IMG/VR virus record: IMGVR_UViG_3300025914_000468
Span: 1 to 22,640 of that record
Strand: one strand, 5' to 3'
Length of the DNA stretch: 22,640 nucleotides
Source of the DNA: a virus
Part shown: positions 303-22,640 of the stretch, in pieces
How the letters are laid out: each line of letters begins with the position of its first letter
Numbering within the stretch: the stretch's first letter is position 1
Translations under genes and position numbers: made by a program
The notes under the pieces: generated by a model
Databases searched by the model: none
The model's input: only the letters and a program-made list of their open reading frames with translations
What the model was told of the DNA's origin: nothing

Positions 303-599
303 TCAGACACCTGGAATAACATAACGTTGCATATGAATCTGCCGGACGTGTTCCCGCTGAGCATGGGCATAGATCATCGTGGTCTGGATCCGATGATGCC
401 CCAGGATCTCCTTAGCGGCGAAAAAAATCCGGCATCTCACATCTTCGGTGTTCCGCTTTGCGTAATATTTCCGGCTGTTCTCCTTGCCATCATATTTTGA
501 AGCTGCCTCGCAAATAGAGTCTCTTACTACGCGGACGACAAATGATTGCCATTCATTTACCCTCTGCTTGGCCTGTTCCCCATCTAGAGCCATCCCCAA
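303..599 (-). pseudogene. C-terminal remnant of a tyrosine recombinase (phage integrase)
   Basis: The last 40 or so of 98 residues match the C-terminal end of tyrosine recombinases: EILGHHRIQTTMIYAHAQRE carries the LGHxxxxTTxxYxH signature, including the nucleophile-type Tyr. The residues before it do not contain the catalytic Arg, the Lys strand or the HxxR box, and the usual length is 300-400 residues, so the protein cannot be an active integrase. The reading frame opens only at a TTG (599) or an ATG (593), and neither has a clear ribosome-binding site. I read it as a stub left by deletion or rearrangement. A complete integrase may lie outside the window. The non-homologous N-terminal half may be out-of-frame or foreign DNA. 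Confidence 0.6.
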
Positions 600-634: not shown

Positions 635-991
635 CTATTCACCGTCTGTTTCCGGTTGTTCTTCCGTGATTTCGCTTGAGAGCAAGCCTCGCAGCATCGC
701 GACCGCGTACTTCTGTCCTATGGGTGACATTGCCGCCACAAGCTTTGACGCTTCTTCGGCGAGATTGACAGGGTGGGGTGCAACTTCGTTCTCGCCGTAG
801 AAGTAGCTGGGATCGACGCGCAGAACCTTGGCGAAGGCGGCGAGGTGTTCCGTGGTGATCACGGTGCGGCCCATCTCCATGGCTGTGATCGTCGTGCGAC
901 TTCGGCCTATGGCTTTGGCAAGGGTGGCCTGATCGATGTTGAGATATTCGCGGCGGGCGCGGATGCGCTGCGGTACGGTGGTGTCTGTCAT
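635..991 (-). CDS. XRE-family transcriptional regulator, repressor-like
   Basis: This 118-residue protein has a Cro/CI-type helix-turn-helix over about residues 7-62: PQRIRARREYLNIDQATLAK is helices 1-2 and SRTTITAMEMGRTVITTEHL covers the recognition helix and the next turn. The remaining 55 residues are helical and acidic at the end, with no S24 protease domain, so it is not a self-cleaving CI repressor. Its promoter lies in the 135-bp gap to the divergent membrane-protein genes, with TTGCGC and TATAAC boxes 17 bp apart and a palindrome over the -35 box. Position next to an integrase stub and at a divergent promoter suggests a lysogeny or accessory-gene repressor that autoregulates. The fold is confident; the target is inferred. 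Confidence 0.85.
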   Translation of the reverse strand: MTDTTVPQRIRARREYLNIDQATLAKAIGRSRTTITAMEMGRTVITTEHLAAFAKVLRVDPSYFYGENEVAPHPVNLAEEASKLVAAMSPIGQKYAVAMLRGLLSSEITEEQPETDGE

Positions 992-1029: not shown

Positions 1030-1066
1030 GTTATACCGAATTTGGGGGTAGGGCGCAATGGTTGCG
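1030..1066 (-). promoter_or_regulatory. Promoter and operator of the XRE gene
   Basis: On the minus strand TTGCGC (1058-1053) and TATAAC (1035-1030) are separated by exactly 17 bp. The -35 box overlaps an imperfect palindrome, CGCAATGGTTGCG (1054-1066). On the plus strand an extended -10 (TGGTATAAT, 1071-1079) lies just beyond it and could serve the divergent gene at 1127. One bound dimer could therefore affect both directions. The same arrangement recurs at 2457-2493. Confidence 0.6.
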
Positions 1067-1126
1067 GTAATGGTATAATCGGACTAGCCGGAACAAGGTC
1101 AGGCAGCTGTTTCGTACTTAGAACTC

Positions 1127-1705
1127 ATGATCGCCAAAAAAATGGAAAAGACGAAAACATCCCAATCTAATGAAAACGGGGAAGGCCAACTCAATCCTGA
1201 ACTAGACAGATCCATTGAACGTGCCTCGGCCATGCTCTCAATCACGTCTAGCTTGATTATCATTGGGTCTGTGTTTAGTTTCTATGGGTTTGCTCGAAGG
1301 ATAAATTTTGATAGCCCACACCCCTTAAACGCCATCTTTCAGGGGCCTCCTCTCCAACCATGGCTTTCCCTGTCATATTTTGCATACATAGCAGCGGTCG
1401 TTGTAATGTTCTTTACAGTCAAAGAAGTCGCTCACATTAGAGCGCTCCGCAAAGGGCAAAGGGCAAGGAAAAGCGCTCCTACCACGAAACCGGTCAGCCC
1501 GTTTCTACGTGGCGCGGCGACCCTCCTTGACCTGCGTGGAGCTTCTGCCAACCCTTACCGGGGGATAGATCCCAAAGTGGCCGACAGTAAGGCCATAGAG
1601 AGCGATTGGGCACATGTAGGCGCAGCGATCGAGGGCGCTATTAGCAAATATCGTGACAGTTTGCCAAAAGACCCGACATCTCAGGTGATGAATGGCCGAT
1701 CCTGA
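1127..1705 (+). CDS. Two-TM membrane protein of unknown function
   Basis: This 192-residue protein is polar and Lys/Glu/Asn-rich for the first 30 residues. It then has two hydrophobic segments, at about 35-55 (SITSSLIIIGSVFSFYGF) and 80-98 (LSLSYFAYIAAVVVMFFTV), and a cytoplasmic-looking basic stretch followed by an 80-residue soluble tail. No family is recognised. The start could be the ATG at 1127 or the one at 1142; neither has a strong ribosome-binding site, but an extended -10 promoter is present about 50 bp upstream. Its 3' end overlaps the start of the DUF2335-like gene by 14 bases, so the two are almost certainly translated together and may form one membrane complex. Confidence 0.6.
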   Translation: MIAKKMEKTKTSQSNENGEGQLNPELDRSIERASAMLSITSSLIIIGSVFSFYGFARRINFDSPHPLNAIFQGPPLQPWLSLSYFAYIAAVVVMFFTVKEVAHIRALRKGQRARKSAPTTKPVSPFLRGAATLLDLRGASANPYRGIDPKVADSKAIESDWAHVGAAIEGAISKYRDSLPKDPTSQVMNGRS

Positions 1706-2147
1706 AGAAACGACTGACCTGCAGACAGGTGAGACAACCGAGCTAGAAACACAAAATACCGACGATAGCGCTGGCCGCCATACATCTCCCCCACAGGATG
1801 TCCTTGTTCGCGACATCTTCAGTATCGTTGCTGAGAGCATGCACTTTTCGGGGCCGATCCCTCCCCCGTCGATGCTTAAGGAGTACAACGAAGCTGCCCC
1901 GGGCGCGGCAGACCTCATTCTGAAGATGGCAGAATTGCAGCAAGCACATCGTATTGAGACGGAGCGAGAAGATACTAAACGAGCCAATCGAGGTCAAATA
2001 TTAGCATTTCTTCTGGCGGCTGGTAGCTTCGCGTGCGGCACGATTACAATCCTGCACGGTCACGATACTGCTGGTACGATTTTCGGAGGTGGAACGATTC
2101 TGAGCTTGGTTTATGCCTTTATCCGTGGAAATGCCAAGAAGGAATAA
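1692..2147 (+). CDS. DUF2335-like predicted membrane protein
   Basis: This 151-residue protein has the layout typical of DUF2335 proteins. There is a variable acidic N-terminus, then FSGPIPPPSMLKEYNEAAPG (about 52-71) and a helical segment rich in Gln/Glu/Arg (ILKMAELQQAHRIETERE). RRGQI-like ANRGQILAFLLAAGSFACG opens the first membrane helix, and a second helix (about 124-143) precedes a basic end. The family is widespread in phages and bacteria and has no proven activity that I know of. The start ATG is preceded by AGGTG and lies inside the upstream gene, which shows translational coupling. A role in the cell envelope or in exclusion of other phages is possible but unproven. Confidence 0.75.
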   Translation: MADPEETTDLQTGETTELETQNTDDSAGRHTSPPQDVLVRDIFSIVAESMHFSGPIPPPSMLKEYNEAAPGAADLILKMAELQQAHRIETEREDTKRANRGQILAFLLAAGSFACGTITILHGHDTAGTIFGGGTILSLVYAFIRGNAKKE

Positions 2148-2173
2148 GTTCCTCGATACAGATTCTATCAATG

Positions 2174-2202
2174 AAGCCGCGTCCGTTTACCGGAAGCGGC
2201 TT
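2174..2202. terminator. Hairpin between convergent genes
   Basis: AAGCCGC (2174-2180) pairs with GCGGCTT (2196-2202), and an inner TCCG/CGGA stem adds four pairs around a five-base loop. It sits between the plus-strand DUF2335-like gene and the minus-strand antitoxin-like gene and could end both transcripts. Only a weak T-rich stretch follows, so it is not a textbook terminator. Confidence 0.5.
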
Positions 2203-2208
2203 GTCACT

Positions 2209-2421
2209 TTACCCCCCCTCGACCGTTCCCGCCTCCTCAATAAGATCGGCGATGCTGCGGCCGCCCAGATCGGCAGGAGCGCCTAACGAGCGCAGGGCGT
2301 GAGGCGCAGACGAGGTATGAAGCAGGCTGCGCAGATACGCCGCTTCATCCATGCCGGCCTTGGCGGCCTCGGAGCGCAAAAGGGCTTCCTCTTCTATACT
2401 GAGTTCTAGCGTGAGTGTCAT
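2209..2421 (-). CDS. Small antitoxin-like (ribbon-helix-helix type) protein
   Basis: This 70-residue protein begins with an alternating strand (MTLTLELSIEEEALLRSEAA) and continues with helices containing KAGMDEAAYLRSLL. That is the pattern of RHH or VapB/CopG-type DNA-binding antitoxins. The ATG at 2421 is chosen over the in-frame ATG at 2436 because GAGG lies 9 bases ahead of it and the upstream ATG overlaps that site. No adjacent toxin is visible: the next genes are the DUF2335-like gene (convergent) and the 291-residue protein (same strand, upstream). It may be an orphan antitoxin-like regulator. Its promoter closely resembles that of the XRE gene at 635-991. Confidence 0.6.
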   Translation of the reverse strand: MTLTLELSIEEEALLRSEAAKAGMDEAAYLRSLLHTSSAPHALRSLGAPADLGGRSIADLIEEAGTVEGG

Positions 2422-2456
2422 GGCTTCGGACCTCATAAAATACTTATTTCAGATAC

Positions 2457-2493
2457 TTTATACCGAATCCGGGGGCGCGGCGCAACTGTTGCG
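2457..2493 (-). promoter_or_regulatory. Promoter with perfect 13-bp palindromic operator
   Basis: On the minus strand TTGCGC (2485-2480) and TATAAA (2462-2457) are 17 bp apart. The palindrome CGCAACTGTTGCG (2481-2493) is perfect around its centre and covers the -35 box. The spacer also matches the XRE promoter at 1030-1066, including ATTCGG next to the -10 and a C-rich middle, so the two promoters look like copies under common control. Confidence 0.6.
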
Positions 2494-2556: not shown

Positions 2557-3432
2557 CTACTTTGTCATTAACGGTATCAAAAAATTGTATAACATTGCCT
2601 TTAATTTAACGGAGTACGGAGGGTAACTTGCTACTCGTTTGGAAAACTGTGTGGCATATCCATTAAAAACCAATCGAGATTCTGGTTGAAGACTTGCATA
2701 CACTTCCGCAAATATTGAAAATATAATGTCTTGTCTGGCACATGCGGCGCTTTCGAGTAATGCGATTTTTCGTGCCTCTTCATCCAAAGGTAGGCTCCAC
2801 ACGACATTAGGCTTATCTGTATAAAATCGACGAGACAAATTGCTCGACATCGCTGATGACATAAATATTTCAGAATAGCTTCCTGGGTGGTAATTCATAT
2901 ACTCGCGTGTTTTTCGCTCATAATGGCGATACGGGTCAGACCTTACCTTTACTATTGTGTCATCATAATCAGTGTCACGCCAATTGAAGTCTGAATACAA
3001 ATCGTAATTTGATGTCCATACTAATTTATGATTATTCACCTCTAAACGCTTAATATCAAAATTTCCAATGGTCGAGCCAGCCGATAACTCAAAGCTACTT
3101 CCTGTATTTAATGTCGATATAGATCGACCTGCGAGGCGATTCAAGCTAAGTACTGCGAAGTAATTGGCATAGTATAGAGTGACGCCAGACCAGCTCAACT
3201 GTCTTCGTTCTGCAAGTGCTTCATAGGCTACCAGATGGCTCAGAGATCTGAAACCAAATCTTAGAGCCTCAAAAAGTTGCGCACGGACTAAATCATTACT
3301 GAAGTGATTAATTGGTTTTTTTACATCAGTTGGAAGCAATATAGTACCATTCCCAAGTATATCCTTTAAACAGCTGCACGGAACAACACCGAGGCTTCCA
3401 ATTTGAGTGGCAATTGAACTTACTGTTTTCAT
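2557..3432 (-). CDS. Unknown protein paired with the DGQHR-domain gene
   Basis: This 291-residue soluble protein is not recognised. The only suggestive part is at about residues 78-101, where WSGVTLYYANYFAVLSLNRL resembles the helix seen in many HEPN-like proteins (YYAxFFAxRALLRL). The later region is rich in Tyr, Asp, Arg and Ser (for example YRHYERKTREYMNYH). It lacks an obvious HEPN RxxxxH motif in that helix, so the similarity is weak. Its ATG follows the stop of the DGQHR gene by a single base, which means the two are co-translated and probably act together. Base composition is visibly AT-rich compared with the replication and structural genes, consistent with later acquisition. Confidence 0.7.
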   Translation of the reverse strand: MKTVSSIATQIGSLGVVPCSCLKDILGNGTILLPTDVKKPINHFSNDLVRAQLFEALRFGFRSLSHLVAYEALAERRQLSWSGVTLYYANYFAVLSLNRLAGRSISTLNTGSSFELSAGSTIGNFDIKRLEVNNHKLVWTSNYDLYSDFNWRDTDYDDTIVKVRSDPYRHYERKTREYMNYHPGSYSEIFMSSAMSSNLSRRFYTDKPNVVWSLPLDEEARKIALLESAACARQDIIFSIFAEVYASLQPESRLVFNGYATQFSKRVASYPPYSVKLKAMLYNFLIPLMTK

Positions 3433-3433
3433 A

Positions 3434-4663
3434 CTAGAGTTGTAGGCGTTTACCTGTTTCTGCTCCTACGGTTTGCTCTATAGCTTCCAGGATACTAGTC
3501 CGAATTCTTTCTGCAAGTCGTTTAGAGGCAACCGTTCCCTGTTGTCCACTGTATACTCTGCCTGTCCACGGTATGCCTTGAACAGGTTTTATTACTTGGA
3601 CAATATGTTCTATTTTGAAATCTGAATATTTCTCTATCGTTTTTGTGAAAATAGTTGGCAGTACAAGCATTAGCGCATTAAAGCCGGTTGTCTTTGTCAC
3701 AATACTTTTATCATCAAACCAAAGATGTGGTAAAGTCTGTCTCACAGCATTGAAATAATTCCGTATTACACCACGCTGGTCTTCCAAAGCAAACTTATAC
3801 TCATTCGTGTGTGAGATTATTCCTCCAGGGCGTAAATGCGGAATCAAAGCATCAACAAAAGTACCTAAGGAGATTTGCCCTAGAACGCGGTCTGAAGTCA
3901 AGCTGATTCTTCCATAAAATGGCGACTCAGGATCACGGGTGAGGCTACGCGCAATATCACTAGCTCTGGAAGTATAAAATGCTTCCTTTGTATCGTCATC
4001 CTCTGAAAAATATTCTAGCAGATCATAAAGTAGTGACTTGTCCACTCCTTGCTGATATGAGTTAATGTCAATGAATAACCGGGCCTGCTCGACAAGTTCG
4101 AGACCAGCAAATGCACAAACAAGAAACTGAAAATCTTCAGGAGTCGCAAATAGTGCCTGGCTTTTGATAAGCAGATCCGCACCGTACACACGGTGCTGAC
4201 CATCGATAATCCAGGCAATCGGTGCCGACGCGGAAAAAGTTACCGTTCCAGCCGCGTCATCATAACGAAGATAATCTTCACTGTCGAAGTTGAGCAAGAT
4301 ACTACTTGGTAGTACACCTCCTGCCTCGACATAACGCTTTATAGATTCAGCACGTTTCGGATCAAGAATGCGTTGATAACCCGCTCCTCGATCCTCAGAG
4401 CGCCTACTAACATATGCGATCCTAACGATTTCGTCCATCGAAAGGCTGAAAGCAAAAAAAATACGGTTGTTCTGCTTGCACTGAACCGCTCTTTTCGTTA
4501 ACATTTCGTCCATCAAGTACTGGCTCCGATTTAAATATTTGGTCGTGAAGTTTTTACGACGGAAAATTAGGTCAATATTTTCTGTATAGATCTCAGTAAA
4601 GAGGCCATTTGCAGCTTTTGCGCTATAATTATCTAGTGCCGGCCTGATTGACGATAGACTCAA
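3434..4663 (-). CDS. DGQHR-domain protein (DndB-like family)
   Basis: This 409-residue protein carries the family hallmarks in order: GYQR at 95-98, the name-giving DGQHR at 154-158 (IIDGQHRVYGADLL) and FIDINSYQQGVDKSL at about 197-211. Such proteins include DndB, the regulator of DNA phosphorothioation, and DpdB of the 7-deazaguanine DNA modification system. The fold resembles ParB/sulfiredoxin, and the motif is thought to bind or hydrolyse nucleotide. No dndA, C, D or E gene, nor any dpd gene, is nearby, so this is a stand-alone member with a 291-residue partner one base downstream. The start is uncertain: the longest frame opens at TTG 4663 without a ribosome-binding site, and ATGs occur at 4513 and 4504. 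A short ORF in another frame immediately upstream leaves room for a frameshift at the 5' end. Confidence 0.8.
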   Translation of the reverse strand: MSLSSIRPALDNYSAKAANGLFTEIYTENIDLIFRRKNFTTKYLNRSQYLMDEMLTKRAVQCKQNNRIFFAFSLSMDEIVRIAYVSRRSEDRGAGYQRILDPKRAESIKRYVEAGGVLPSSILLNFDSEDYLRYDDAAGTVTFSASAPIAWIIDGQHRVYGADLLIKSQALFATPEDFQFLVCAFAGLELVEQARLFIDINSYQQGVDKSLLYDLLEYFSEDDDTKEAFYTSRASDIARSLTRDPESPFYGRISLTSDRVLGQISLGTFVDALIPHLRPGGIISHTNEYKFALEDQRGVIRNYFNAVRQTLPHLWFDDKSIVTKTTGFNALMLVLPTIFTKTIEKYSDFKIEHIVQVIKPVQGIPWTGRVYSGQQGTVASKRLAERIRTSILEAIEQTVGAETGKRLQL

Positions 4664-5236: not shown

Positions 5237-6820
5237 TCAGTTCGCCAACGAGTCCATATAGTGCTTCATCATTTCCATGTTTAGCAAGTTTGCCTCCCTA
5301 TGGCATTCATAAAGTTCACGACGTAGGCGAAGATCTTCAGATTCAAATTCGTCTTGGAGATCCTTTAAATATTCACTTCCATGTAAATCTCCCATACTAA
5401 TTGATCCGTCTTCGTCATTCTTTCGACGTTGCAAAGTTTGTCGATCAATGTAATAATGAAAGATGCGATCCAATAGATGACCATAACGATCATCTATTAT
5501 CTGAACGGTAAGATCGCCCCGTTCGAGATCCTCAATATAGACACGTTGAGCGTTTGCCCATCGCTTCATTACTTCCGCAACCTGGGTACTAGGGGCTTCA
5601 TCAAATGCGGATTCAATATCCTCTTCCCATGCAATCGAGAGCTCCGATTGTTCTAGACCACAATTGTCGTACCACCAGAGAACCGCACTAGTATATTCGC
5701 CATCGTGTCTCCCATCTGGCAGTGCCAGACCAAATCGCCCCACATCGTCGAATCGCTCAATCGGAGCACGTTTGTTATTTTGGTTCTCAACGTCTGGCGC
5801 GAGCTTCGCTCCATACCAGATCTCAAGCTCCCACATCCAATTTAGGATATAACTTGTTGTCGGTGCAGTAAGCGCATGCCCCATTAGATCTTCGAAGCTT
5901 AAGCGATAAATCCCGTTAACTGCCAAACCAAGTAGTCTTGATGAATAGTGAGGATGATCGAGGAGAATATCTTCTTCCAGCTTCTTAAGAAAGGAACTGA
6001 TGTCACGAATCTTGTAACGAGCTATAATATCACGGACGATTTTAACTGTGTGGTTAATAACATCGTGTCTTAATTGTTCATCCGCATGAACTATGGTGTC
6101 ATCGCGACCACCATCGAAATAATAGAGACGGAAAGCCCTTACAGCCATATAAGGTTCAAGACAGGCAGCATGATGGCGAGATCTGTACCCAAGGATCCCG
6201 AGCCGTATTACCTTAAACATAGCTACACAAACCGATGCAATGCCTGACGCTTCTGGCGTCGATGGTCCAACGCGACTTTCACCGCGACCATCTATCCTGG
6301 TATTCATGTATCGCAGTGTGGCATTGAGCAGATCAACTAGACCAGCCCGAATACTATTCCATTCCAGGTCGTCTTCTTTAGTCTCGTCGGTGAGGAATTC
6401 CGCCAGATCGAGCGGCGGTTCATCGGCAATTACAGACTCCGTTGCCGACCTCATCCAATGTGCCCATGCAATTTGAATGTATTCTTCGTATCCTTGGTCA
6501 ATCAGATCAGCTGCGTATAGGTGAAGCCAAGACGCAGGCACTTGAGGGATCGTAGCGGTAATCTCAGGATAGTCAGCAGCCCTTAGAAGCGGATTCGGAT
6601 CGACGCCCATCCCGCGAGCGAAGTCGATAATGAGTTCCATCGAAGCTTTCTCTCCGTTTGCCATCATGCCAATAGAAGAGTGGCTAACGCCAGTTTGCCT
6701 CGCTGCATCTTTTAGCGTTAGCCTATCTTTGTCACCCCAACGAAGAAGCTTTCGTACCAGCTTGGCCAGATCGGGATATGGTCCAGGTATAGGTGCGTCT
6801 GGTGAAACGGACTTTGCCAT
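5237..6820 (-). CDS. Large protein with N-terminal XRE helix-turn-helix
   Basis: This is a 527-residue protein. Residues about 17-75 form an XRE-type HTH (DRLTLKDAARQTGVSHSSIG, then ANGEKASMELIIDFARGMG), in which the VSHSSI helix would read DNA. The other 450 residues are an unrecognised, mainly helical, acidic domain with many Trp, Tyr and Asp residues. It has no membrane helices, no HExxH and no Walker motif that I can see. The length is far above ordinary phage repressors (100-250 residues), so the C-terminal part is likely an effector or sensor domain. It is divergently transcribed from the small HTH gene at 7022 and followed by a 106-residue gene. The start ATG has GGAAGAG about 13 bases upstream, a little far. 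Confidence 0.7.
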   Translation of the reverse strand: MAKSVSPDAPIPGPYPDLAKLVRKLLRWGDKDRLTLKDAARQTGVSHSSIGMMANGEKASMELIIDFARGMGVDPNPLLRAADYPEITATIPQVPASWLHLYAADLIDQGYEEYIQIAWAHWMRSATESVIADEPPLDLAEFLTDETKEDDLEWNSIRAGLVDLLNATLRYMNTRIDGRGESRVGPSTPEASGIASVCVAMFKVIRLGILGYRSRHHAACLEPYMAVRAFRLYYFDGGRDDTIVHADEQLRHDVINHTVKIVRDIIARYKIRDISSFLKKLEEDILLDHPHYSSRLLGLAVNGIYRLSFEDLMGHALTAPTTSYILNWMWELEIWYGAKLAPDVENQNNKRAPIERFDDVGRFGLALPDGRHDGEYTSAVLWWYDNCGLEQSELSIAWEEDIESAFDEAPSTQVAEVMKRWANAQRVYIEDLERGDLTVQIIDDRYGHLLDRIFHYYIDRQTLQRRKNDEDGSISMGDLHGSEYLKDLQDEFESEDLRLRRELYECHREANLLNMEMMKHYMDSLAN

Positions 6821-6911
6821 CGACTAAAAACAACTCTTCCTGCAACAAGATGCGACGATTTACAACTTTCATTGTGACACCACAGTTACGGTAAAAGTCG
6901 CACTATCAGAC

Positions 6912-6991
6912 TTATATCCGTATTTTTTTTTGGAAATAAAGATGTTTTAGGATTGAAATAGTCGAAACGAAGTGATATACTCTTTATATCC
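6912..6991. promoter_or_regulatory. Divergent control region with direct repeats
   Basis: The 201-bp gap between the divergent genes at 6820 and 7022 is strongly AT-rich. TTATATCC occurs twice in direct orientation (6912-6919 and 6984-6991), on either side of the promoter at 6953-6981. The repeats may be operators for either neighbouring HTH protein. Confidence 0.35.
6953..6981 (+). promoter_or_regulatory. Sigma-70 type promoter of the small HTH gene
   Basis: TTGAAA (6953-6958) and TATACT (6976-6981) are separated by 17 bp and lie 40 bp ahead of the ATG at 7022. This is the best housekeeping-type promoter match in the window. Confidence 0.7.
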
Positions 6992-7021
6992 AAAAAATTT
7001 TACAGAAATAGAGAGGGACGA

Positions 7022-7249
7022 ATGTTCACAAGAGGTCAGTTGATGGAGATTGACGAAAAACTTCGAAAAGGTGTGTTGCCAGAAGTGATTGCAGGAGACT
7101 TCGGGCTAAGTTATACCGGTTTTCGCAATGCACTGTATCGGAGTGGGCAACAATGGGAGGTTACTCGAAAACTTGTACCCACTGGCCCTGCTGACGATAT
7201 ACAAGCGACAAATGCAATACAAGAAGGCGCTCTATGCGCCCACACATAA
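7022..7249 (+). CDS. Small HTH protein
   Basis: This 75-residue protein's core, LRKGVLPEVIAGDFGLSYTG followed by FRNALYRSG, reads as a helix-turn-helix of the resolvase/transposase-like type: a helix, GLS as the turn, then a recognition helix. The tail of about 25 residues is disordered in appearance. GAGAGGGACG lies directly ahead of the ATG and a strong promoter is present 40 bp upstream. The gene is followed at once by a hairpin terminator, so it is a single-gene unit. It could be a Cro- or CII-like early regulator that opposes the divergent XRE protein, though direct evidence is lacking. Confidence 0.65.
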   Translation: MFTRGQLMEIDEKLRKGVLPEVIAGDFGLSYTGFRNALYRSGQQWEVTRKLVPTGPADDIQATNAIQEGALCAHT

Positions 7250-7251
7250 AA

Positions 7252-7281
7252 AGAGCCCGCCGGTCGGCGCCAGCGGGCTCT
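7252..7281. terminator. Intrinsic terminator hairpin
   Basis: AGAGCCCGC (7252-7260) pairs with GCGGGCTCT (7273-7281) around a 12-base loop, directly after the stop of the small HTH gene. On the plus strand the tail is CTACCTTTA. On the minus strand it is TTTTTATG, so the hairpin may stop transcription in both directions. Confidence 0.7.
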
Positions 7282-7322
7282 CTACCTTTACTCAGCGTGA
7301 ACTGAGCATATGAAAGGCTACG

Positions 7323-7643
7323 ATGGTTATTTTACTCGAAAGACCACTCCCGGCGCAAGTGCCGCCATCAGACCTACCGGTTCGATCAAATATCACGCAC
7401 ATCGTGCGAGTGGACGATGATCGGCTCTTGCCCACCTTCGAAGCGGGCGATATGCTTCTCGTAGACCGCGAATTCGACGCATCTGTTGAGGATCCGGAAC
7501 AGATGGCGCTGCTGCTGAACTTCTGCGGCAATCTCGAAATTCTGACTGTCAAAGGCGCACTGCGCACGGATCGGATGAAGGGCGGCTACTTTGTTGCCAT
7601 CGTCCGTGGCGTTTACACATCGTTTGGTCTGAGGGGGATATGA
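7323..7643 (+). CDS. LexA/S24-fold-like protein without visible catalytic serine
   Basis: In this 106-residue protein, residues 30-53 (VDDDRLLPTFEAGDMLLVDR) match the DSMxPTxxxGDxxLVDR box of S24 peptidases (LexA, CI, UmuD). The Ser-Met pair is replaced by Arg-Leu. The later part, ILTVKGALRTDRMKGGYFVA, resembles the strand that carries the catalytic Lys in that family. There is no N-terminal DNA-binding domain. A fold-only, non-proteolytic relative is the simplest reading. AAGG lies five bases ahead of the ATG. The next gene starts inside this gene's stop codon (ATGA), so the two proteins are made together. The family call rests on motif shape only. Confidence 0.5.
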   Translation: MVILLERPLPAQVPPSDLPVRSNITHIVRVDDDRLLPTFEAGDMLLVDREFDASVEDPEQMALLLNFCGNLEILTVKGALRTDRMKGGYFVAIVRGVYTSFGLRGI

Positions 7644-15091: not shown

Positions 15092-15262
15092 TTAAAAATT
15101 CGTTCCATGCTCAAAACAATCTGCACTCCAGTGAACGGTCTGATGGCTTCGCTGGGGATTGGAATGCAGGCACCCTTCATGGCCATGCTGCCAGCGTTGA
15201 AATAGTCTTCGACGAACTGTTAGATGCTCCTCAATGACCTTGAGAAGGTCCCACGCTTCCAC
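15092..15262 (-). pseudogene. Truncated 5' fragment of a prkA-like gene, copy 1
   Basis: A GTG at 15262 with AAAGG seven bases ahead opens a frame that begins MEAWDLLKVIEEH (first residue read from GTG). The DNA of the leader and first 13 codons closely matches the better preserved prkA fragment at 15507-15839, where the peptide begins METWDVLKAVEQH. After that the two diverge and the remaining 43 residues (ending DCFEHGTNF) look like nothing known. A minus-strand terminator lies just upstream. I read it as a second, shorter copy of the start of a kinase gene. It is unlikely to make a functional protein. Confidence 0.5.
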
Positions 15263-15302
15263 TATCAATCCTTTCATGACATCTAAGGATATCATGCTCT
15301 TA

Positions 15303-15506: not shown

Positions 15507-15839
15507 CTAGCTTAAATATACCACAAAATTTGTCTCTCGTAAAGATCTCAATTCAATTGTGTAACAAAGATTTAAGTAGTCTTCCACGAGGTACTGGATC
15601 GTCTTTTCCATCCCAAAGAGCTCGCCCTCGAAGAACTTGTAAGTCTTCATCTGACCTTCACCGTTGTCCTGAACGCCTCCAGCAAGAATCATGTCGTAGA
15701 CGCGGGCGTGCGCAAGGTCCGTTACTCTGGGGTTGGTACGTATTATCTACAGGTAGTCCTTAAACGTACCTTCCCACTGCAATTTGTCCTCCTCTGCCTG
15801 ATGCTGCTCAACGGCCTTGAGAACGTCCCAAGTTTCCAT
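15507..15839 (-). pseudogene. prkA: Broken 5' part of serine protein kinase gene prkA, copy 2
   Basis: The frame starts METWDVLKAVEQHQAEEDKL, continues QWEGTFKDYL, meets a TAG (15749-15747), then goes on in the same frame with IIRTNPRVTDLAHARVYDMI and MKTYKFFEGELFGMEKTIQ, YLVEDYL. This matches the N-terminus of PrkA (Bacillus form: KWEGTF..YL.IV..NP, AHSRVF.MI, .ELFGL...IE.LVE.Y). The TAG sits where PrkA normally has Glu (GAG). After VEDYL the similarity stops, before the Walker A region, and about 20 unrelated residues end the frame. PrkA normally has about 630 residues, so this is a dead fragment. AAAGG lies eight bases ahead of the ATG, so the host leader was carried along. Confidence 0.7.
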
Positions 15840-15885
15840 AAACTATCCTTTCGGGGCCATCAGTCGCGGGGCATATTTCACCCCG

Positions 15886-15935
15886 AAAAAAAGACACAGC
15901 CTCGGCGGTCACCGGGAAGTGTCCACCGAGGCTGT
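15886..15935 (-). terminator. Minus-strand terminator upstream of prkA copy 2
   Basis: On the minus strand ACAGCCTCGG (15935-15926) pairs with CCGAGGCTGT (15905-15896), two further pairs follow past a mismatch, and seven T come after a three-base step. It points away from the terminase genes and towards the prkA fragment, as if a host gene once ended here. Confidence 0.75.
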
Positions 15936-15991
15936 ATCTTAGATTCTTCAGCGATTTGGTGTTGAGATCTTGATAGTGATTGGATAGCACT

Positions 15992-16630
15992 ATGCCCTAC
16001 GAACCCAACCCCAGCACAACCGACCTCGACGCCCGTGCCGCCGGTAAGTGTGGCTGGATCAAGGACAACGGCGAGCCCTGCAAGAACAAGGCTGGACACG
16101 GGACGGCGCATGTGGGGCAGGGGTGCTGCAAGAAGCACAACGGCGGCGGAGGACGGCCACCGACACATGGCCTCTACTCGCAGATCAAACGGCCGCGTAT
16201 CGTGGAGCTGCTCGCCGCGTGTGATGCGCTCGACGATCCTCTCGACCTCACCGCGGACCTGAAGATGCTGCGCTCTCTCACTGTGGATTGGATCGAGCGC
16301 TACGACGAACTCGTGGAAGCCATCATCGCCTGGCATGAAAGCTATCAGAACCCGGAGCGCACTTACAAGCCGACGAAGGTCCCGGACATTGCCGATGCAA
16401 CCGCGCTGCTGGACCGGATCGGCGCGATGGTGGACCGGATTGAGAAACGCCGTGAGAAAGGCGCATTGTCGATGAGCCGGGTGAAGACGATCCTCGATCA
16501 GTACGCGGAGCAGGTTCTGATGGCAACGCAGGCACACGTCGATGACCCTGACCTACAAACCAAGCTTCTCGACGATATCGAGGAACGCTGGGGTCGCATC
16601 GAACTCGACACTCAGCCGTCCGGACGATGA
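15992..16630 (+). CDS. Terminase small subunit-like protein with Cys/His N-terminus
   Basis: This 212-residue protein starts at the ATG 15992; a TTG at 15980 is in frame but less likely. Residues 20-50 hold Cys20, Cys30, Cys46 and His49 within KCGWIKDNGEPCKN and GHGTAHVGQGCCKKHNGG. This is the Zn-finger-like box found in many phage proteins directly upstream of the large terminase (CGxxxxxGxPCxxxxGxGTxHxGxGxCxxHGG). The rest is helical, with a coiled region (ATALLDRIGAMVDRIEKRRE). It would recognise phage DNA and start packaging together with the large subunit encoded next. Its stop is about 10 bp before the large-subunit start. Confidence 0.75.
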   Translation: MPYEPNPSTTDLDARAAGKCGWIKDNGEPCKNKAGHGTAHVGQGCCKKHNGGGGRPPTHGLYSQIKRPRIVELLAACDALDDPLDLTADLKMLRSLTVDWIERYDELVEAIIAWHESYQNPERTYKPTKVPDIADATALLDRIGAMVDRIEKRREKGALSMSRVKTILDQYAEQVLMATQAHVDDPDLQTKLLDDIEERWGRIELDTQPSGR

Positions 16631-16640
16631 ACAGAACCCG

Positions 16641-18275
16641 ATGCGCCGGGCCCGGCGCGACTTCACCAATGCGGACCTTTCCGAATACCAGTACGATCCC
16701 GTGCGCTACATCCGCGAAAAGCTCGGATGGGAGCCATGGGAGGGCAGCGAAGCGACGCCCGGACAGGTCGAAGTCATCAACGCCTACGTGCTGGCGCTCC
16801 GCCAACAGCATGAGCGAGCCGACTTCAAAAAGGGCCTGATTGCCGAAGCCGACCTGAAGTACTGGCGGCCGGGCGAAGTCATCAAGAACCGCATTCGCAT
16901 TGAAGCAGGCCACACGGTCGGCAAAACCAAGCTCGCCAGCGGCCTGTTCAATCACTTCTTCGACTGCTTTTGTCCCTCAATCATTTACAGCTATGCGCCG
17001 GGCTGGGAGTCCATCAAAGATCTTCTCTGGAAGGAAATCGAGACCGACCGCGAGGGCAAGGGATTGCCCGGCCGCGTGCTGCAGACGTGCGAGATCAAGT
17101 ACAAGCCGAATCACTTCGCCAAGGGGCGCGCGACCAACGATAGCGGCGGTAAGGGTACGGAGCGCGTCCAGGGCCAGCACGGCAAGTACCTGATGTTCGT
17201 GCTTGATGAGGCCGAGGGCGTTGCCGACTTCGTGTACGGCGCGGTCGAGTCGATGACCTCGGGCGGCATCAGCATCGTCTTGATGCTCGCCAACCCGAAA
17301 AGTCGCGGCTCACTCTTTCACAAGCAGGCAGGACGCTCGGACACGGCATCGTTTCGGATCAGCTGCGTTAACCATCCGAATGTGCTCACCGACCGCGAGA
17401 TCGTGCCGGGAGCCGTCCAGCGCGATTATGTACGCAAGATGGTCGAGCTGCTGACCGAGATCGTGCCCGAGCATGACGAGGATCAACAGACATTCACCCT
17501 GCCGTTTCCGGTGACCGTTCACGGCGCGGAGCGGCCGGGCGGGACGATCTTTAAACCCTATCCAGAGTTCTTGTGGCGCGTCCTGGGCATCGCGCCGTCC
17601 AACGTTGCCGACAACACGTTCGTTCCATTCGGCCGGTATGAGGCAGCTTGCAAACGTGCAGCGCCGGCCGAAGACCGGGCGCAAGGACGCATCGGTGTCG
17701 ACGTGGCGGGGTTCGGCAAGGACTACGGGACGATCTACATTCGGCACAACGGCCGCGTGTGGCGCTTCGCTCAGATTTGGCGACAGGACTACGACGACTA
17801 CGCCCGTAGGGTCAAGCAGGCGGCTCTGCATCTGAAGTCGCTGGGTGTGACGAACATCCAGATTCGCATTGACGCCGGCGGCGGCTTCGGCAACGGTGTC
17901 ACATCACACCTCAAGCTCGACAGCGAGTTCCTGGAAGCCTTCCCGGAAGAGAACCGCCGCGTGATCATGGTGCATTTCGGTGTGCCGCCTCACGACAAGA
18001 CGGCCTACGCCGATGTGATCACCGAGCTTTACGCGGAAGCGGCCGAAACCCTGAAGGGCATCCGTGTGGACAATCCACCGGAGGCGCTCGAAGGCGATCT
18101 CACCGAACGCACGTATGACTGGGTGAACAAGTCCGGCGTCTCCGTGAAGAAGCTTGAAGAGAAGAAAGCATTCAAAAAGCGCAAGATGCGCAGTCCGGAC
18201 GACGGCGACGGCTTTGTGTTGTGTGCTGCCCCGGATCACCTCTTCACCAGTCGCAAGGTCGTGACATTCGAATGA
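16641..18275 (+). CDS. terL: Terminase large subunit (packaging ATPase and nuclease)
   Basis: This is a 544-residue protein from the ATG at 16641. The frame is open from 16542, but that would overlap the small subunit by 89 bases. The ATPase half has Walker A GHTVGKTK (about 90-97) and Walker B LMFVLDEAEG (about 184-193) with the catalytic Glu. The RNase-H-like nuclease half shows IGVDVAGFGKDYGTI (Asp about 354), IRIDAGGGFGNGV (Asp about 411) and a final DDGDGF. Length and motif order fit an intact terminase. It cuts concatemeric DNA and pumps it into the prohead through the portal. Its stop codon overlaps the start of a 42-residue membrane ORF by the ATGA arrangement. Confidence 0.95.
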   Translation: MRRARRDFTNADLSEYQYDPVRYIREKLGWEPWEGSEATPGQVEVINAYVLALRQQHERADFKKGLIAEADLKYWRPGEVIKNRIRIEAGHTVGKTKLASGLFNHFFDCFCPSIIYSYAPGWESIKDLLWKEIETDREGKGLPGRVLQTCEIKYKPNHFAKGRATNDSGGKGTERVQGQHGKYLMFVLDEAEGVADFVYGAVESMTSGGISIVLMLANPKSRGSLFHKQAGRSDTASFRISCVNHPNVLTDREIVPGAVQRDYVRKMVELLTEIVPEHDEDQQTFTLPFPVTVHGAERPGGTIFKPYPEFLWRVLGIAPSNVADNTFVPFGRYEAACKRAAPAEDRAQGRIGVDVAGFGKDYGTIYIRHNGRVWRFAQIWRQDYDDYARRVKQAALHLKSLGVTNIQIRIDAGGGFGNGVTSHLKLDSEFLEAFPEENRRVIMVHFGVPPHDKTAYADVITELYAEAAETLKGIRVDNPPEALEGDLTERTYDWVNKSGVSVKKLEEKKAFKKRKMRSPDDGDGFVLCAAPDHLFTSRKVVTFE

Positions 18276-18400
18276 CACCATTCCTCCTATTTTTGTACAT
18301 GGTCGCTGCCGCCGCCGGCATTGTCGTCATTGGTCTCTGCGGGATTGGCCTGTGGCTGCTTTACCTGTACATCGTGGGGACGCTGAGGGCGAAGCCGTAA
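18272..18400 (+). CDS. 42-residue membrane peptide between terminase and portal
   Basis: The ATG overlaps the terL stop (ATGA) and the TAA is directly followed by the portal ATG, so this ORF fills the gap to the base. Nearly the whole peptide is hydrophobic (MTPFLLFLYMVAAAAGIVVI, then GLCGIGLWLLYLYIVG), ending in the polar, basic TLRAKP. It forms one long or two short membrane helices. The exact fit and coupling make translation likely. No family is recognised. Possible roles are a small membrane protein for the head-assembly site or a holin-like peptide; neither is shown. Confidence 0.75.
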   Translation: MTPFLLFLYMVAAAAGIVVIGLCGIGLWLLYLYIVGTLRAKP

Positions 18401-19702
18401 ATGCTAAACACAAAAGCAATCGCTTCACGGCTGCAGGGTGGTCTGGAGGCCGTTCGTAAGGGATTCAGCCTCTCATGGGGCAACGGGACGGTCGGCAGCA
18501 ACGGCGGCAATCCCTGGCGCGTGATGCTCCCCGGTTCCCAGATCGACTACAAAGAGAAGGCTGGCGATCTGTGGCTCAATAGCGCCGTTTCTATCTGTAT
18601 CGGCTGGATTTCGGATAACCTGCCTGAGGCGGAACTGGAGGTCGTCACGACCCAGGACGACGGTACCACGGCGGCCGTTCCCGATCATCCGCTTGTCGAT
18701 CTGATCCAGAACCCGAACTCGTACTACGATGACGATGTCCTCTGGGCGGCGACGATCCTCAGTTACTGCACGGACGGCAACGCCTATTGGTACAAGGCGC
18801 GCGACGGCTACGGCTACATCAAGGAGCTCTGGTATCTGCCGCACTGGCAGGTCGAGCCGCGCCGTCTGCCGAACAGCACCAACTTTCTCGATTACTTTGA
18901 GTATCGCCCGGGCGGGAGGCCGCAAGCGCTCCCTCCGGAGGATGTGATCCACTTCCGCTTCGGTATGGATCCAGACAACCTCATGAAGGGCTTTGCCCGT
19001 CTCAAGCCGGTCCTGCGCGAGATCATGACCGACAACGAATCGGCAACGTACACGGCCGCGTTGCTCCATAACATGGGTGTTCCCGGTGTCATCATCACTC
19101 CGGCCAGTCCCGAGGGCGTGCTCGGCGACGGTGTCCCCGCAAAGCTTAAATCCCTCTGGAGAGAGCGCGTTACGGGCGACTTCCGCGGCGATCCGATCGT
19201 GGCGCCGGCCGCCGTGCGCATCGAGAAGCTCAGCTTTAGCCCGGAAGAGCTCGCCCTCGACAAGATCCGCATCGTGCCGGAAGCGCGCATCCTCGGCGCA
19301 CTGCGGATGCCGGGAATGGTTGTCGGCCTGAGCGTCGGCGATGCGCAGCGCACGTACAGCAACTACAAAGAGGCGCGGGAAGCCGCGAACGAAGACTGCC
19401 TCATCCCGGTCGGCAAGCGTTTCGTCAAAACCATTAACCGACAACTCAAGCCGGATTTTAAGAAGACCGAGAACCAAGTCCTGCGCTGGAATTACCAGAA
19501 TGTCCGGTCGATGCAGCCGGACCGCATGGAAGCGTCGAAGCGGGCTGTCATCGAGTACACCGGCGGGATTGCCACACTCAACGAAGCCCGCAGTGAGACC
19601 GGGAAGCCGCCGGACAAAACCGCCCGGGGCAATCAGTACTGCCCGAAACCGGCCGCGCCGGTTCCTGATAAGTCCGCCGACACTGGCGATTCCACGCCGT
19701 GA
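18401..19702 (+). CDS. HK97-family portal protein
   Basis: In this 433-residue protein the order of segments is that of HK97-type portals: KAGDLWLNSAVSICIGWISD (entry of the clip and wing), DHPLVDLIQNPN, YCTDGNAYWYKARDG, ELWYLPHWQVEPRR, LPPEDVIHFRFGMDP and a C-terminal RSETGKPPDKTARGNQY. Twelve copies form the ring through which DNA enters and leaves the head. GAGGGCG nine bases ahead supports the ATG. The last residues are Pro/Ala/Asp-rich and disordered. The gene is followed within about 15 bp by a terminator before the protease gene. Confidence 0.93.
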   Translation: MLNTKAIASRLQGGLEAVRKGFSLSWGNGTVGSNGGNPWRVMLPGSQIDYKEKAGDLWLNSAVSICIGWISDNLPEAELEVVTTQDDGTTAAVPDHPLVDLIQNPNSYYDDDVLWAATILSYCTDGNAYWYKARDGYGYIKELWYLPHWQVEPRRLPNSTNFLDYFEYRPGGRPQALPPEDVIHFRFGMDPDNLMKGFARLKPVLREIMTDNESATYTAALLHNMGVPGVIITPASPEGVLGDGVPAKLKSLWRERVTGDFRGDPIVAPAAVRIEKLSFSPEELALDKIRIVPEARILGALRMPGMVVGLSVGDAQRTYSNYKEAREAANEDCLIPVGKRFVKTINRQLKPDFKKTENQVLRWNYQNVRSMQPDRMEASKRAVIEYTGGIATLNEARSETGKPPDKTARGNQYCPKPAAPVPDKSADTGDSTP

Positions 19703-19717
19703 CCCTGCTTTTGACCT

Positions 19718-19746
19718 GCCGCCTACGCAAACGTAGCGGCTTTTTT
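19718..19746 (+). terminator. Intrinsic terminator between portal and protease
   Basis: GCCG-CCTACG (19718-19727) pairs with CGTAG-CGGC (19732-19740) with one bulged base and a four-base loop, followed by six T. It lies inside the structural gene cluster, so part of the transcripts would end after the portal gene. Confidence 0.75.
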
Positions 19747-19765
19747 GTTGCCTCCGAGGTGGCCT

Positions 19766-20983
19766 GTGAAACGTGAAAAACCAAAGCTTTATGTGCTGAA
19801 GGATGCCGCCTTCGACGGTAACAAGCTGCGCGGCGTCGCGTCCGTGATGGGCAATCTCGACAATGCCAATGTCCGGGACGTCATCTATCCGATCGCCTTC
19901 GGGACGTGTCTCACCAGCTTTCTCAGCGCCGGATTTATGGCCGATAGTCACGACTGGTCGAAGATGATCGGCATGCCTTTAGTCGCTGAGGTTCAGGGCA
20001 ATTCCCTCTTCACCGAGAGTGAGTTCCATTCTACGGCGGACGCGCAGGACCTGCGTACGAAGTGTATGGAGCGTATGGCGAACGGCCTGAGCGTCGGCCT
20101 ATCCATCGGCTTCTCGATTGCGCCAGACGGCTCTCGGGTGTTTGCGAATGGAGACGACCTGCTGACCCATGCCCGCGAGATGGGATGCGACATGTCCTTG
20201 TTTGACGTCGCGGGAATCTCGGCGTGGAAAAGCAAGTGCCGGGGCATCTGGGACATCTCCGACCTCTATGAGTACTCCATCGTGAGCGTGCCCGCCAATC
20301 CGCTCGCGAACGCCACCGACGTCAAAAACCGGGATGCCGAGTTCAAGGCGCAGTATCTGGGCGAATACCTCGAACAGTCGATGACGATGGCGGCTCTGCG
20401 GCGGCTCGATGACGCGTTGTTCTACAACGTGCTCTATGAACTTGTATTCGGCGATTATGTTTATAATCCGACCACGGACGAGTACGAGTATGTCCGGCCG
20501 CCTCTGGATGAAGCTCTGACCACGCTTGAAGCCACCTTGCAGGAGTTTACGACCATCTTCCTGCGCACCTTTAAGACGCTCATGGCCGATGTGACGGACG
20601 AGGAGGCGACGGAGCTTGCCAAGTCGATTCGCACACTCTGGCCTGACCCTTCTCACGCATCAGCGGCCCCGCCTGCTCGGGGTCCCTATGCCGACCAGCT
20701 GACATCGGCGCTTGCTGCCGTGAAAGGCTGCATCGAGCGCGGCGTGTCCATCAAGGATATCCGCGCCAAAGATCAGCGCACCCTCTCGCCGGAGCGGGCC
20801 GCGCAGATCAAAGTCCTCCAGGACGCCCTGGGCGAACTCGCCACCGCAGAGATATCCGCCACGGAAACCGGCGCATCCGCCGAGACCGAGGCAGACAATC
20901 TTGCGGGCGCGAAATCAGCCCGGATAGCCTTCGAAATTTCACGGGCTCGGCAGTGGGGTGTTGACCTCACCGAGACCAATTAG
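19766..20983 (+). CDS. HK97-family prohead protease with long C-terminal extension
   Basis: The GTG at 19766 is taken as start because GAGGTGG lies six bases ahead; a TTG at 19745 lies inside the terminator tail. In this 405-residue protein, the first 185 or so form the U35-type protease: catalytic His62 (SHDWSKMIGMPL), Ser113 (SVGLSIGFSI) and EYSIVSVPANPLA near 170-182. The other 220 residues are an extra domain that typical HK97 gp4 proteases (about 225 residues) do not have, with helical segments and an acidic, Ala/Glu-rich end. It matures the head by cutting the capsid delta domain and itself. The extension could serve as a built-in scaffold. Confidence 0.9.
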   Translation: MKREKPKLYVLKDAAFDGNKLRGVASVMGNLDNANVRDVIYPIAFGTCLTSFLSAGFMADSHDWSKMIGMPLVAEVQGNSLFTESEFHSTADAQDLRTKCMERMANGLSVGLSIGFSIAPDGSRVFANGDDLLTHAREMGCDMSLFDVAGISAWKSKCRGIWDISDLYEYSIVSVPANPLANATDVKNRDAEFKAQYLGEYLEQSMTMAALRRLDDALFYNVLYELVFGDYVYNPTTDEYEYVRPPLDEALTTLEATLQEFTTIFLRTFKTLMADVTDEEATELAKSIRTLWPDPSHASAAPPARGPYADQLTSALAAVKGCIERGVSIKDIRAKDQRTLSPERAAQIKVLQDALGELATAEISATETGASAETEADNLAGAKSARIAFEISRARQWGVDLTETN

Positions 20984-21031
20984 TCTCCTTACCGAGATTT
21001 ATGAGCAGCGCACAGCGCAAGGATACACAAA

Positions 21032-22264
21032 ATGCCGACATATAAAGAACTCAGCGAGCAGCTGGATGTGAAGCGCAAGGAACTGAAGACGTTCTTCGAC
21101 ACCCACAAGAACGCCGCCGGCGAGTACGACATGACGACCGACGATCTGAAGGTTGTCAACGATCGCAACGCGGAGCTTGAAAAGCTCGGCAAGGACTGGC
21201 TTGCGGTGCGCGAGACGGAAGTCGTCGCGAAGAACCTGCAGGATGCGATGGAGGCGGCCGGTCACATTCAGCGCCCGGAGTTTGGCAAGGATGGTCGCCA
21301 GGGCGACCCGTCCGAGCAGTTCCGTGAGGCGAAGTCTCTTGGTCAGAGCCTGATCGATTCCAAGGAATACAAGGGCGTCGCGCCCTTCTCCACCAAGCGG
21401 TTTCAGGTTGAACTGGAGAACGTCTCCCTCAAGACAACGATGACGAGCGCGGCCGGATATCCGCCGTTCAGCCCGCGCGGCGACAAGCTGGTTCTCTCCG
21501 CGCAGCGCCGCCCGATGATCGCCGATTTGATCCCGCAGGACGATACCCCGTACGCGGCGATCAAGTACATGGAGGAAACCACCTTCACGAACGCGGCGGC
21601 GTCCACGGCGGAAGCGGCGGCCTCCCCGGAATCGGCGCTGGCCTACACGGAGCGCACGATCCCGGTGGAGAAGATCTCCACCTTCATCCCGGTCACCGAA
21701 GAGCAGGTCGCGGACACGGCCGCCCTGCGCGGTCTGATTGATAGCCGCCTGCGCCTGATGATCAGCCTGAAGGAAGAAGATCAGATCCTGAACGGATCCG
21801 GCACCTCGCCGCAGCTGCAGGGATTCTATAACAAGTCCGGCATTCAGACGCAGGCACTCGGCGTGGACCCGGTTCCGGATGCGATCTACAAGGCGATGAC
21901 GAAGGTCCGCTGGACCGGCTACGCGGACCCGACCGGCGTCGTCTTGCACCCCAACGACTGGCAGGACATTCGCCTGCTGCGCACGGCTGACGGTCTGTAT
22001 ATCTGGGGCAACCCGGCCGAAGCGGGGCCGGAAACGATCTGGGGCCTGCCTGTCATCGCGACGACGGCGGCCACGGAGAACACAGGCCTCACCGGCGACT
22101 TCCAGATGTACGCGCACATCAGCCGCCGTCTCGGGATCACGATCGCCGTCAGCGATTCCCATGGCAACAACTTCATCGCGGGCATCCTGGCCATTCGCGC
22201 CGACAGCCGCCTGTCGCTGGAGATCTACCGCGCGTCCGCGTTCTGCACCGTGACCGGCATCTAA
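21032..22264 (+). CDS. HK97-family major capsid protein
   Basis: This is a 410-residue protein. The N-terminal 100 or so residues are charged and helical (YKELSEQLDVKRKELKTFFD), the delta domain that acts as scaffold and is cut off by the protease. Next comes the HK97-fold shell domain: SLKTTMTSAAGYPPFSP, AAIKYMEETTFTNAAASTAE (E-loop region), VEKISTFIPVTEEQVADTA (spine helix region), EEDQILNGSGTSPQLQGFY and a C-terminal GNNFIAGILAIRADSRLSLE. Length is normal for the family. AAGGATACACAAA before the ATG gives a usable ribosome-binding site. It is the main shell protein of the virion and would be highly expressed. Confidence 0.95.
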   Translation: MPTYKELSEQLDVKRKELKTFFDTHKNAAGEYDMTTDDLKVVNDRNAELEKLGKDWLAVRETEVVAKNLQDAMEAAGHIQRPEFGKDGRQGDPSEQFREAKSLGQSLIDSKEYKGVAPFSTKRFQVELENVSLKTTMTSAAGYPPFSPRGDKLVLSAQRRPMIADLIPQDDTPYAAIKYMEETTFTNAAASTAEAAASPESALAYTERTIPVEKISTFIPVTEEQVADTAALRGLIDSRLRLMISLKEEDQILNGSGTSPQLQGFYNKSGIQTQALGVDPVPDAIYKAMTKVRWTGYADPTGVVLHPNDWQDIRLLRTADGLYIWGNPAEAGPETIWGLPVIATTAATENTGLTGDFQMYAHISRRLGITIAVSDSHGNNFIAGILAIRADSRLSLEIYRASAFCTVTGI

Positions 22265-22283
22265 ACCCGCTACGGACGTTCGC

Positions 22284-22313
22284 GCCGCCCTCTGATCGAC
22301 TGGTGAGGGCGGC
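22284..22313. other. Hairpin after the major capsid gene
   Basis: GCCGCCCTC (22284-22292) pairs with GAGGGCGGC (22305-22313) around 12 bases. No T-tract follows; a ribosome-binding site comes right after. It may stabilise the 3' end of the capsid mRNA or tune the next gene. Confidence 0.5.
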
Positions 22314-22325
22314 CGGAGGAAAACA

Positions 22326-22640
22326 ATGATTCTACAAGGCGGAAATGTGATGCCGGGCAGCGGACTGGGCAATCCGCTGACAAACGCCGGCGCGCCCGTG
22401 AACGGCACGACCGAAGTTCAGACGATCACTCTTGGCGGCACACCGACCGGCGGAACCTTCAAACTTGGTTTTGACGGGTTTGTCACTGGTCCGATTGCCT
22501 GGAGCGCAACGAATGCGACGCTGATCGCCAACATCGACGCAGCTCTTGAGGCCTTGCCGAACGTGGGAGTGGGGGGCATTGTGATTGCTGTCGGATCAAT
22601 GACAGCGGGAATCGGCACGGCCACGGCCACGTTACCGGCG
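22326..22640 (+). CDS. Putative head decoration-type protein, cut by the window end
   Basis: The open frame starts at an ATG with GGAGG seven bases ahead and runs past the end of the window (105 codons seen). After a Gly/Pro/Asn-rich start comes EVQTITLGGTPTGGTFKLGF, then SATNATLIANIDAALEALPN and a beta-rich stretch. This is the pattern of a repeated beta domain often seen in phage head or decoration proteins (EVQTVTLTGTPTGGTFTLTF...AALEAL). Location directly after the capsid gene supports a head role. The remainder cannot be judged from this window. Confidence 0.6.
   Translation, partial: MILQGGNVMPGSGLGNPLTNAGAPVNGTTEVQTITLGGTPTGGTFKLGFDGFVTGPIAWSATNATLIANIDAALEALPNVGVGGIVIAVGSMTAGIGTATATLPA

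Follow-up and report, generated by a model that had tools for sequence, protein, structure and literature searches.

An autorepressor that also acts at a satellite operator is an ordinary, textbook regulatory principle, and in phage lambda the operator layout is tripartite. The site of the alphaproteobacterial XRE protein PraR is given, in the available part of the source, as a 13-bp palindrome, CAAC-N5-GTTG (PMC5527310), and a further report, in its accessible part, deals with PraR orthologues and with TgrL of phage phiCbK (PMC10688885). The locus described here lies in a stretch of 22,640 bases (the window), which constitutes an entire virus record, one not linked to any host genome. Its XRE protein has the P22 C2 repressor as nearest solved structure, although its own structure model is poor (pLDDT 47). 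Two features of autoregulating Cro/C1-type phage repressors are found, an HTH_3/XRE DNA-binding domain that scores well above its cut-off and, as judged by sequence only, a symmetric site at 1054-1066 on the gene's own promoter. The S24 peptidase domain of LexA/S24-type cleavable repressors is absent from this 118-aa protein. The features of the locus are as follows, the promoter elements being read from the sequence.

635-991, minus strand: XRE (HTH_3) protein, 118 aa, presumed autorepressor (HTH_3, 1.7e-10, 41.2 bits, cut-off 23)
1030-1035, minus strand: -10 of the XRE promoter, TATAAC
1053-1058, minus strand: -35 of the XRE promoter, TTGCGC (3/6 to consensus)
1054-1066, no strand: putative operator 1, CGCAATGGTTGCG (exact match)
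1071-1079, plus strand: divergent extended -10, TGGTATAAT, presumed membrane-protein gene promoter (no clear -35)
1127-1705, plus strand: 192-aa ORF, apparently with two membrane spans (by eye)
1692-2147, plus strand: DUF2335 membrane protein, 151 aa (PF10097, 1.3e-12; phrog_3996, 1.6e-28)
2174-2202, no strand: hairpin separating the convergent genes, possibly a two-way terminator (fold z -2.27 on the plus strand, -3.59 on the minus strand)
2209-2421, minus strand: acidic protein like ribbon-helix-helix (RHH) proteins, 70 aa, with 2436 as alternative start (weak matches, NikA-like 0.0047 and MbpA 0.0045)
2457-2462, minus strand: -10 of the RHH promoter, TATAAA
2480-2485, minus strand: -35 of the RHH promoter, TTGCGC
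2481-2493, no strand: putative operator 2, CGCAACTGTTGCG (exact match)

The likeness of the XRE and RHH promoters exceeds chance. Both have a 17-bp spacer between -35 and -10, and their 38-mers are identical at 31/38 positions, ranking second among all 38-mer pairs in the window, whereas in 60 dinucleotide shuffles the top direct pair scored 25 to 28 each time. With the two hexamers removed, 20/28 positions still agree (binomial tail 3e-7, uncorrected for the search). Within the window, exact copies of ATTCGGTATAA occur only at 1031-1041 and 2458-2468, that is, at the two promoters, and those of CGCAANNGTTGCG only at 1054-1066 and 2481-2493. The shared stretch spans ~49 bp and drops to background on both sides, identities being 4/20 and 3/20 at about 40-60 bases from the -10 on its upstream and downstream sides, respectively; because identity falls away on either side, the twin promoters are not part of a long repeat. 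The CGCAA-N3-TTGCG palindrome overlies the -35 region of both promoters in the same register. By itself the palindrome is unremarkable and not significant, as palindromes of this form (5-base arms, 3-base gap) number 29 in the window, with four different arms occurring twice; it is the composite with the promoter that stands out. The original prediction, which had paired the near-identical promoters of the XRE gene and an antitoxin-like gene and had placed a palindrome on their -35 region, is thus upheld. The top-ranked 38-mer pair of the window belongs to a 53-nt direct repeat (15223-15275 and 15800-15852, 81% identical, 577 bp apart) located before the terminase genes.

Operator 1 also sits in a predicted divergent plus-strand promoter ahead of two membrane-protein genes, a third likely target that the first reading of the sequence had missed. 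The nonamer TGGTATAAT is the consensus extended -10 and, because it occupies 1071-1079 on the plus strand, operator 1 lies between back-to-back promoters, the plus-strand member of which is presumably real. The DUF2335 gene, whose product carries a Pfam domain that has no assigned function and turned up in 20 phage records, overlaps the 1127-1705 ORF, and it is separated from the convergent RHH gene by the hairpin at 2174-2202, which lacks a strong T-run. The four genes, together with the two operators, thereby make up a tidy unit at 635-2495, a layout that suggests a self-contained accessory cassette. DNA similarity of positions 600-2600 to phages and plasmids was not found, nor were Rfam families in the window, and the 12 stretches of viral contigs recovered as possible DUF2335 homologues included none that was confirmed. 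Also encoded in the window, on the minus strand, are a 291-aa protein of no assigned family (2557-3432) and, adjoining it, a DGQHR/DpdB-like protein (3434-4663; TIGR03187, 3.5e-45; NCBIfam DpdB, 2.3e-25, below the equivalog cut-off), with no other dpd genes named among ten proteins scanned.

The observed sequence shared between promoters and operators, the XRE domain, the gene layout and the predicted hairpin are the starting point for a mechanism that we hold to be probable, if only modestly so, in which XRE is an operator-binding autorepressor with a satellite site at operator 2. The 118-aa XRE would be a dimeric repressor, small and of the Cro/C1 type, with CGCAA-N3-TTGCG as its binding site. 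Bound to operator 1, it would cover its own gene's -35 region, resulting in autorepression, as well as the spacer of the divergent promoter for the two membrane-protein genes; bound to operator 2, it would cover the -35 region in front of the RHH gene. XRE, the two membrane proteins, the shared hairpin and RHH would then constitute an accessory cassette that is self-contained and lies close to the phage fragment's left end. XRE fits best as the binder because the palindrome lies on its own -35 region and because its HTH part is basic (charge +4.8), as against -7.3 for the RHH-like protein; furthermore, the gene adjoins operator 1 and encodes a confident HTH. That XRE binds is our best inference from the anatomy rather than a result, and binding would presumably repress. 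If the mechanism is right, a DUF2335 membrane protein and an orphan RHH protein are tied to a repressor, and the timing of their production could then be worked out simply.

Several observations speak against XRE in this role. No homologue shares the operator (0/10, all distant relatives), an operator by itself does not account for conservation that continues beyond the palindrome through the spacer, and TTGCGC, with 3/6 bases of TTGACA, is a poor -35. In addition, the real switch could be at ~5237-7643, where another HTH protein is encoded along with an S24-like ORF. Neither promoter is among the sites listed by a sigma-70 scan of the window, and their firing is presumed from their sequence motifs.

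The homologue count deserves a closer reading. XRE-like matches came from 86 phage and 54 plasmid records. Ten of these were fetched, and in each the neighbourhood of the gene start was scanned; no site within 1 mismatch of CGCAANNNTTGCG turned up, and L030 and L032 each held two 2-mismatch matches. The recognition helix is clearly different from that of XRE in 9/10 of these relatives, all distant, and the negative therefore says little. In 8/10 the helix is of the TFQQ type, which we take to be the PraR/CdxA/TgrL kind. Searches for XRE homologues returned 17 stretches in viral contigs and 166 in genome contigs, none confirmed, and 0/19 matches among related viral records in a search run without a positive control (14 records related by terminase and 5 by the DGQHR gene); the collections searched may omit records very near the window. 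For RHH, 80 stretches of viral contigs were likewise unconfirmed and plasmids gave none. No close relative of either protein, or of the operator, was detected in the collections searched.

A search for the full site found just the two copies in the window and none further in the nearly identical record IMGVR_UViG_3300009545_000275 (G006, locus L008, 24,073 bases). This record overlaps window positions 15795-22640 at 99.985% over 6,847 columns and so extends the part of the phage open to searching. A half-site pattern with one mismatch allowed was found in 4 of the 19 related records, at five places: the G006 match is a coding site at window position 19726 in the overlap (by our coordinate conversion), the G014 match is inside an ORF, and two of the remaining three are one and the same G001 palindrome, matched on either strand. 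The promoter pattern was found in 0/7 records, a subset of the 19.

That conservation extends into the spacer (12/17 positions, including the C-tract and ATTCGG) has no explanation except wider contact or recent duplication. Were the twin promoters one segment duplicated by recombination, the palindrome would have been carried along and no common repressor would be needed, and both the conserved spacer and the abrupt end of identity at ~49 bp would fit. However, the differences between the copies avoid both the -10 and the arms of the palindrome, 8/10 non-hexamer positions around the palindrome match, and symmetry is kept in both copies, so that we regard duplication alone as unlikely. Reading of the palindrome by a host regulator instead of a phage protein, which would couple both genes to host physiology, is rather improbable: the element could come from the host, but a form with 20 specified bases is absent from an 84,980-species genome collection and three forms are absent from viral contigs, these patterns being strict, with the -10 or C-tract included, such that a looser host site could escape them. 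The likeness of TTGCGC to only half of the -35 consensus and the silence of the promoter scan are what an activator site compensating for a poor -35 box would predict, yet class II activators sit near -41.5, whereas the centre of the palindrome falls within the hexamer itself, at about -37 relative to the expected start, and we consider this reading very improbable indeed.

The RHH-like protein is the other candidate encoded within the unit. RHH proteins often autoregulate, and operator 2 is on the RHH gene's own promoter, as expected if the protein bound both sites as an antitoxin-like autorepressor. Against this, its net charge is -7.3, the presumed DNA-facing strand would present T2, T4 and E6, no toxin family was named among the scanned neighbours, and the next gene downstream is convergent, in place of the adjacent, co-transcribed toxin of a type II toxin-antitoxin system. 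Control of both promoters by RHH is unlikely because of the acidic charge and because no partner toxin was found, and as an account of the whole locus we rate it as quite improbable. The model of the protein has two helices at low confidence (pLDDT 64), and the antitoxin-like label that the gene was first given has the weak NikA-like and MbpA matches in its favor, both of which are below cut-off.

Returning to XRE as the repressor, the remaining question is where its cassette stands in the phage. By our reading of the ORF list rather than by family searches, helicase, terminase, portal, protease and capsid-like ORFs follow the left region. A tyrosine integrase is represented by its last 22 profile positions (351-416, minus strand; 14.7 bits, below the Pfam cut-off), the record ends being missing; G006 has no integrase match, and full-length matches are present in G009 and G014, 2/6 of the related records G009, G012, G014, G015, G017 and G018. 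The original prediction that one repressor, probably XRE itself, controls a small regulon in the lysogen holds in part, in that XRE on both sites fits the anatomy best, and it is extended by the third likely target, the plus-strand promoter; the lysogen is a supposition, the window having no more of an integrase than this tail. Pseudomonas phage MD8 also has a DUF2335 gene near an integrase, and the other three DUF2335 cases fetched have no integrase annotated within 3 kb.

The main switch of the phage is probably the region 5237-7643, where a gene for a 527-aa HTH protein (5237-6820) diverges from a small ORF (7022-7249), behind which is an S24-like ORF without an HTH (7323-7643, weak match). 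The same region has a promoter-like site, TTGAAA-17-TATACT, as well as repeats (6912-7015). In the 6820-7022 gap, a search that allowed up to 2 mismatches found no copy of the operator. It is doubtful that the XRE cassette is the immunity switch, and more likely that it is an accessory (moron) unit. A more specific version, which we advance tentatively, is of a compact, movable cassette in which XRE, by means of a bidirectional operator and its distant twin, would switch two convergent units, the membrane pair (one of them DUF2335) and the acidic RHH, possibly for superinfection exclusion and independently of the main immunity region.

Among described systems, the mycobacteriophage stoperators, as far as the available part of the account goes, likewise have one repressor with sites away from the repressor gene, but those sites are many and asymmetric, whereas here two symmetric sites lie at promoters. 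The many dispersed sites of stoperator-type immunity are not seen in the window or further in G006, in a phage that may be incomplete. Some ChIP motif sites of Pf4r, the repressor C of filamentous phage Pf4, hold GCAACAGTTGC or nearly so, and the Pf4r site is described as non-palindromic, unlike the palindrome here, in the part of PMC8402870 available; at E 0.01, XRE matched no solved chain named Pf4r. The published PraR site, in the portion of the source available, has the same overall length of 13 bp as the present one, with different half-sites and with the spacing CAAC-N5-GTTG as against CAAC-N1-GTTG at site 2, so that the PraR-family site is not the one found here. The recognition helices differ as well, SRTTITAMEMG in XRE and TFQQVQKYEKG in the PraR/CdxA/TgrL kind. 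In short length XRE resembles DicA of the Qin prophage and RstR of the CTX phage, but in this comparison, which is by protein alone, its NCBIfam scores of 43.5 bits (DicA) and 24.2 bits (RstR) fall far short of the 101 and 80 bits set as curated cut-offs. Compared with the P22 C2 and lambda-type repressors, XRE is a 118-aa protein without the S24 cleavage domain, and each promoter has one palindrome in place of a tripartite operator; like them, it has an HTH that aligns with residues 6-64 of P22 C2 and a palindromic site over its own and a divergent promoter.
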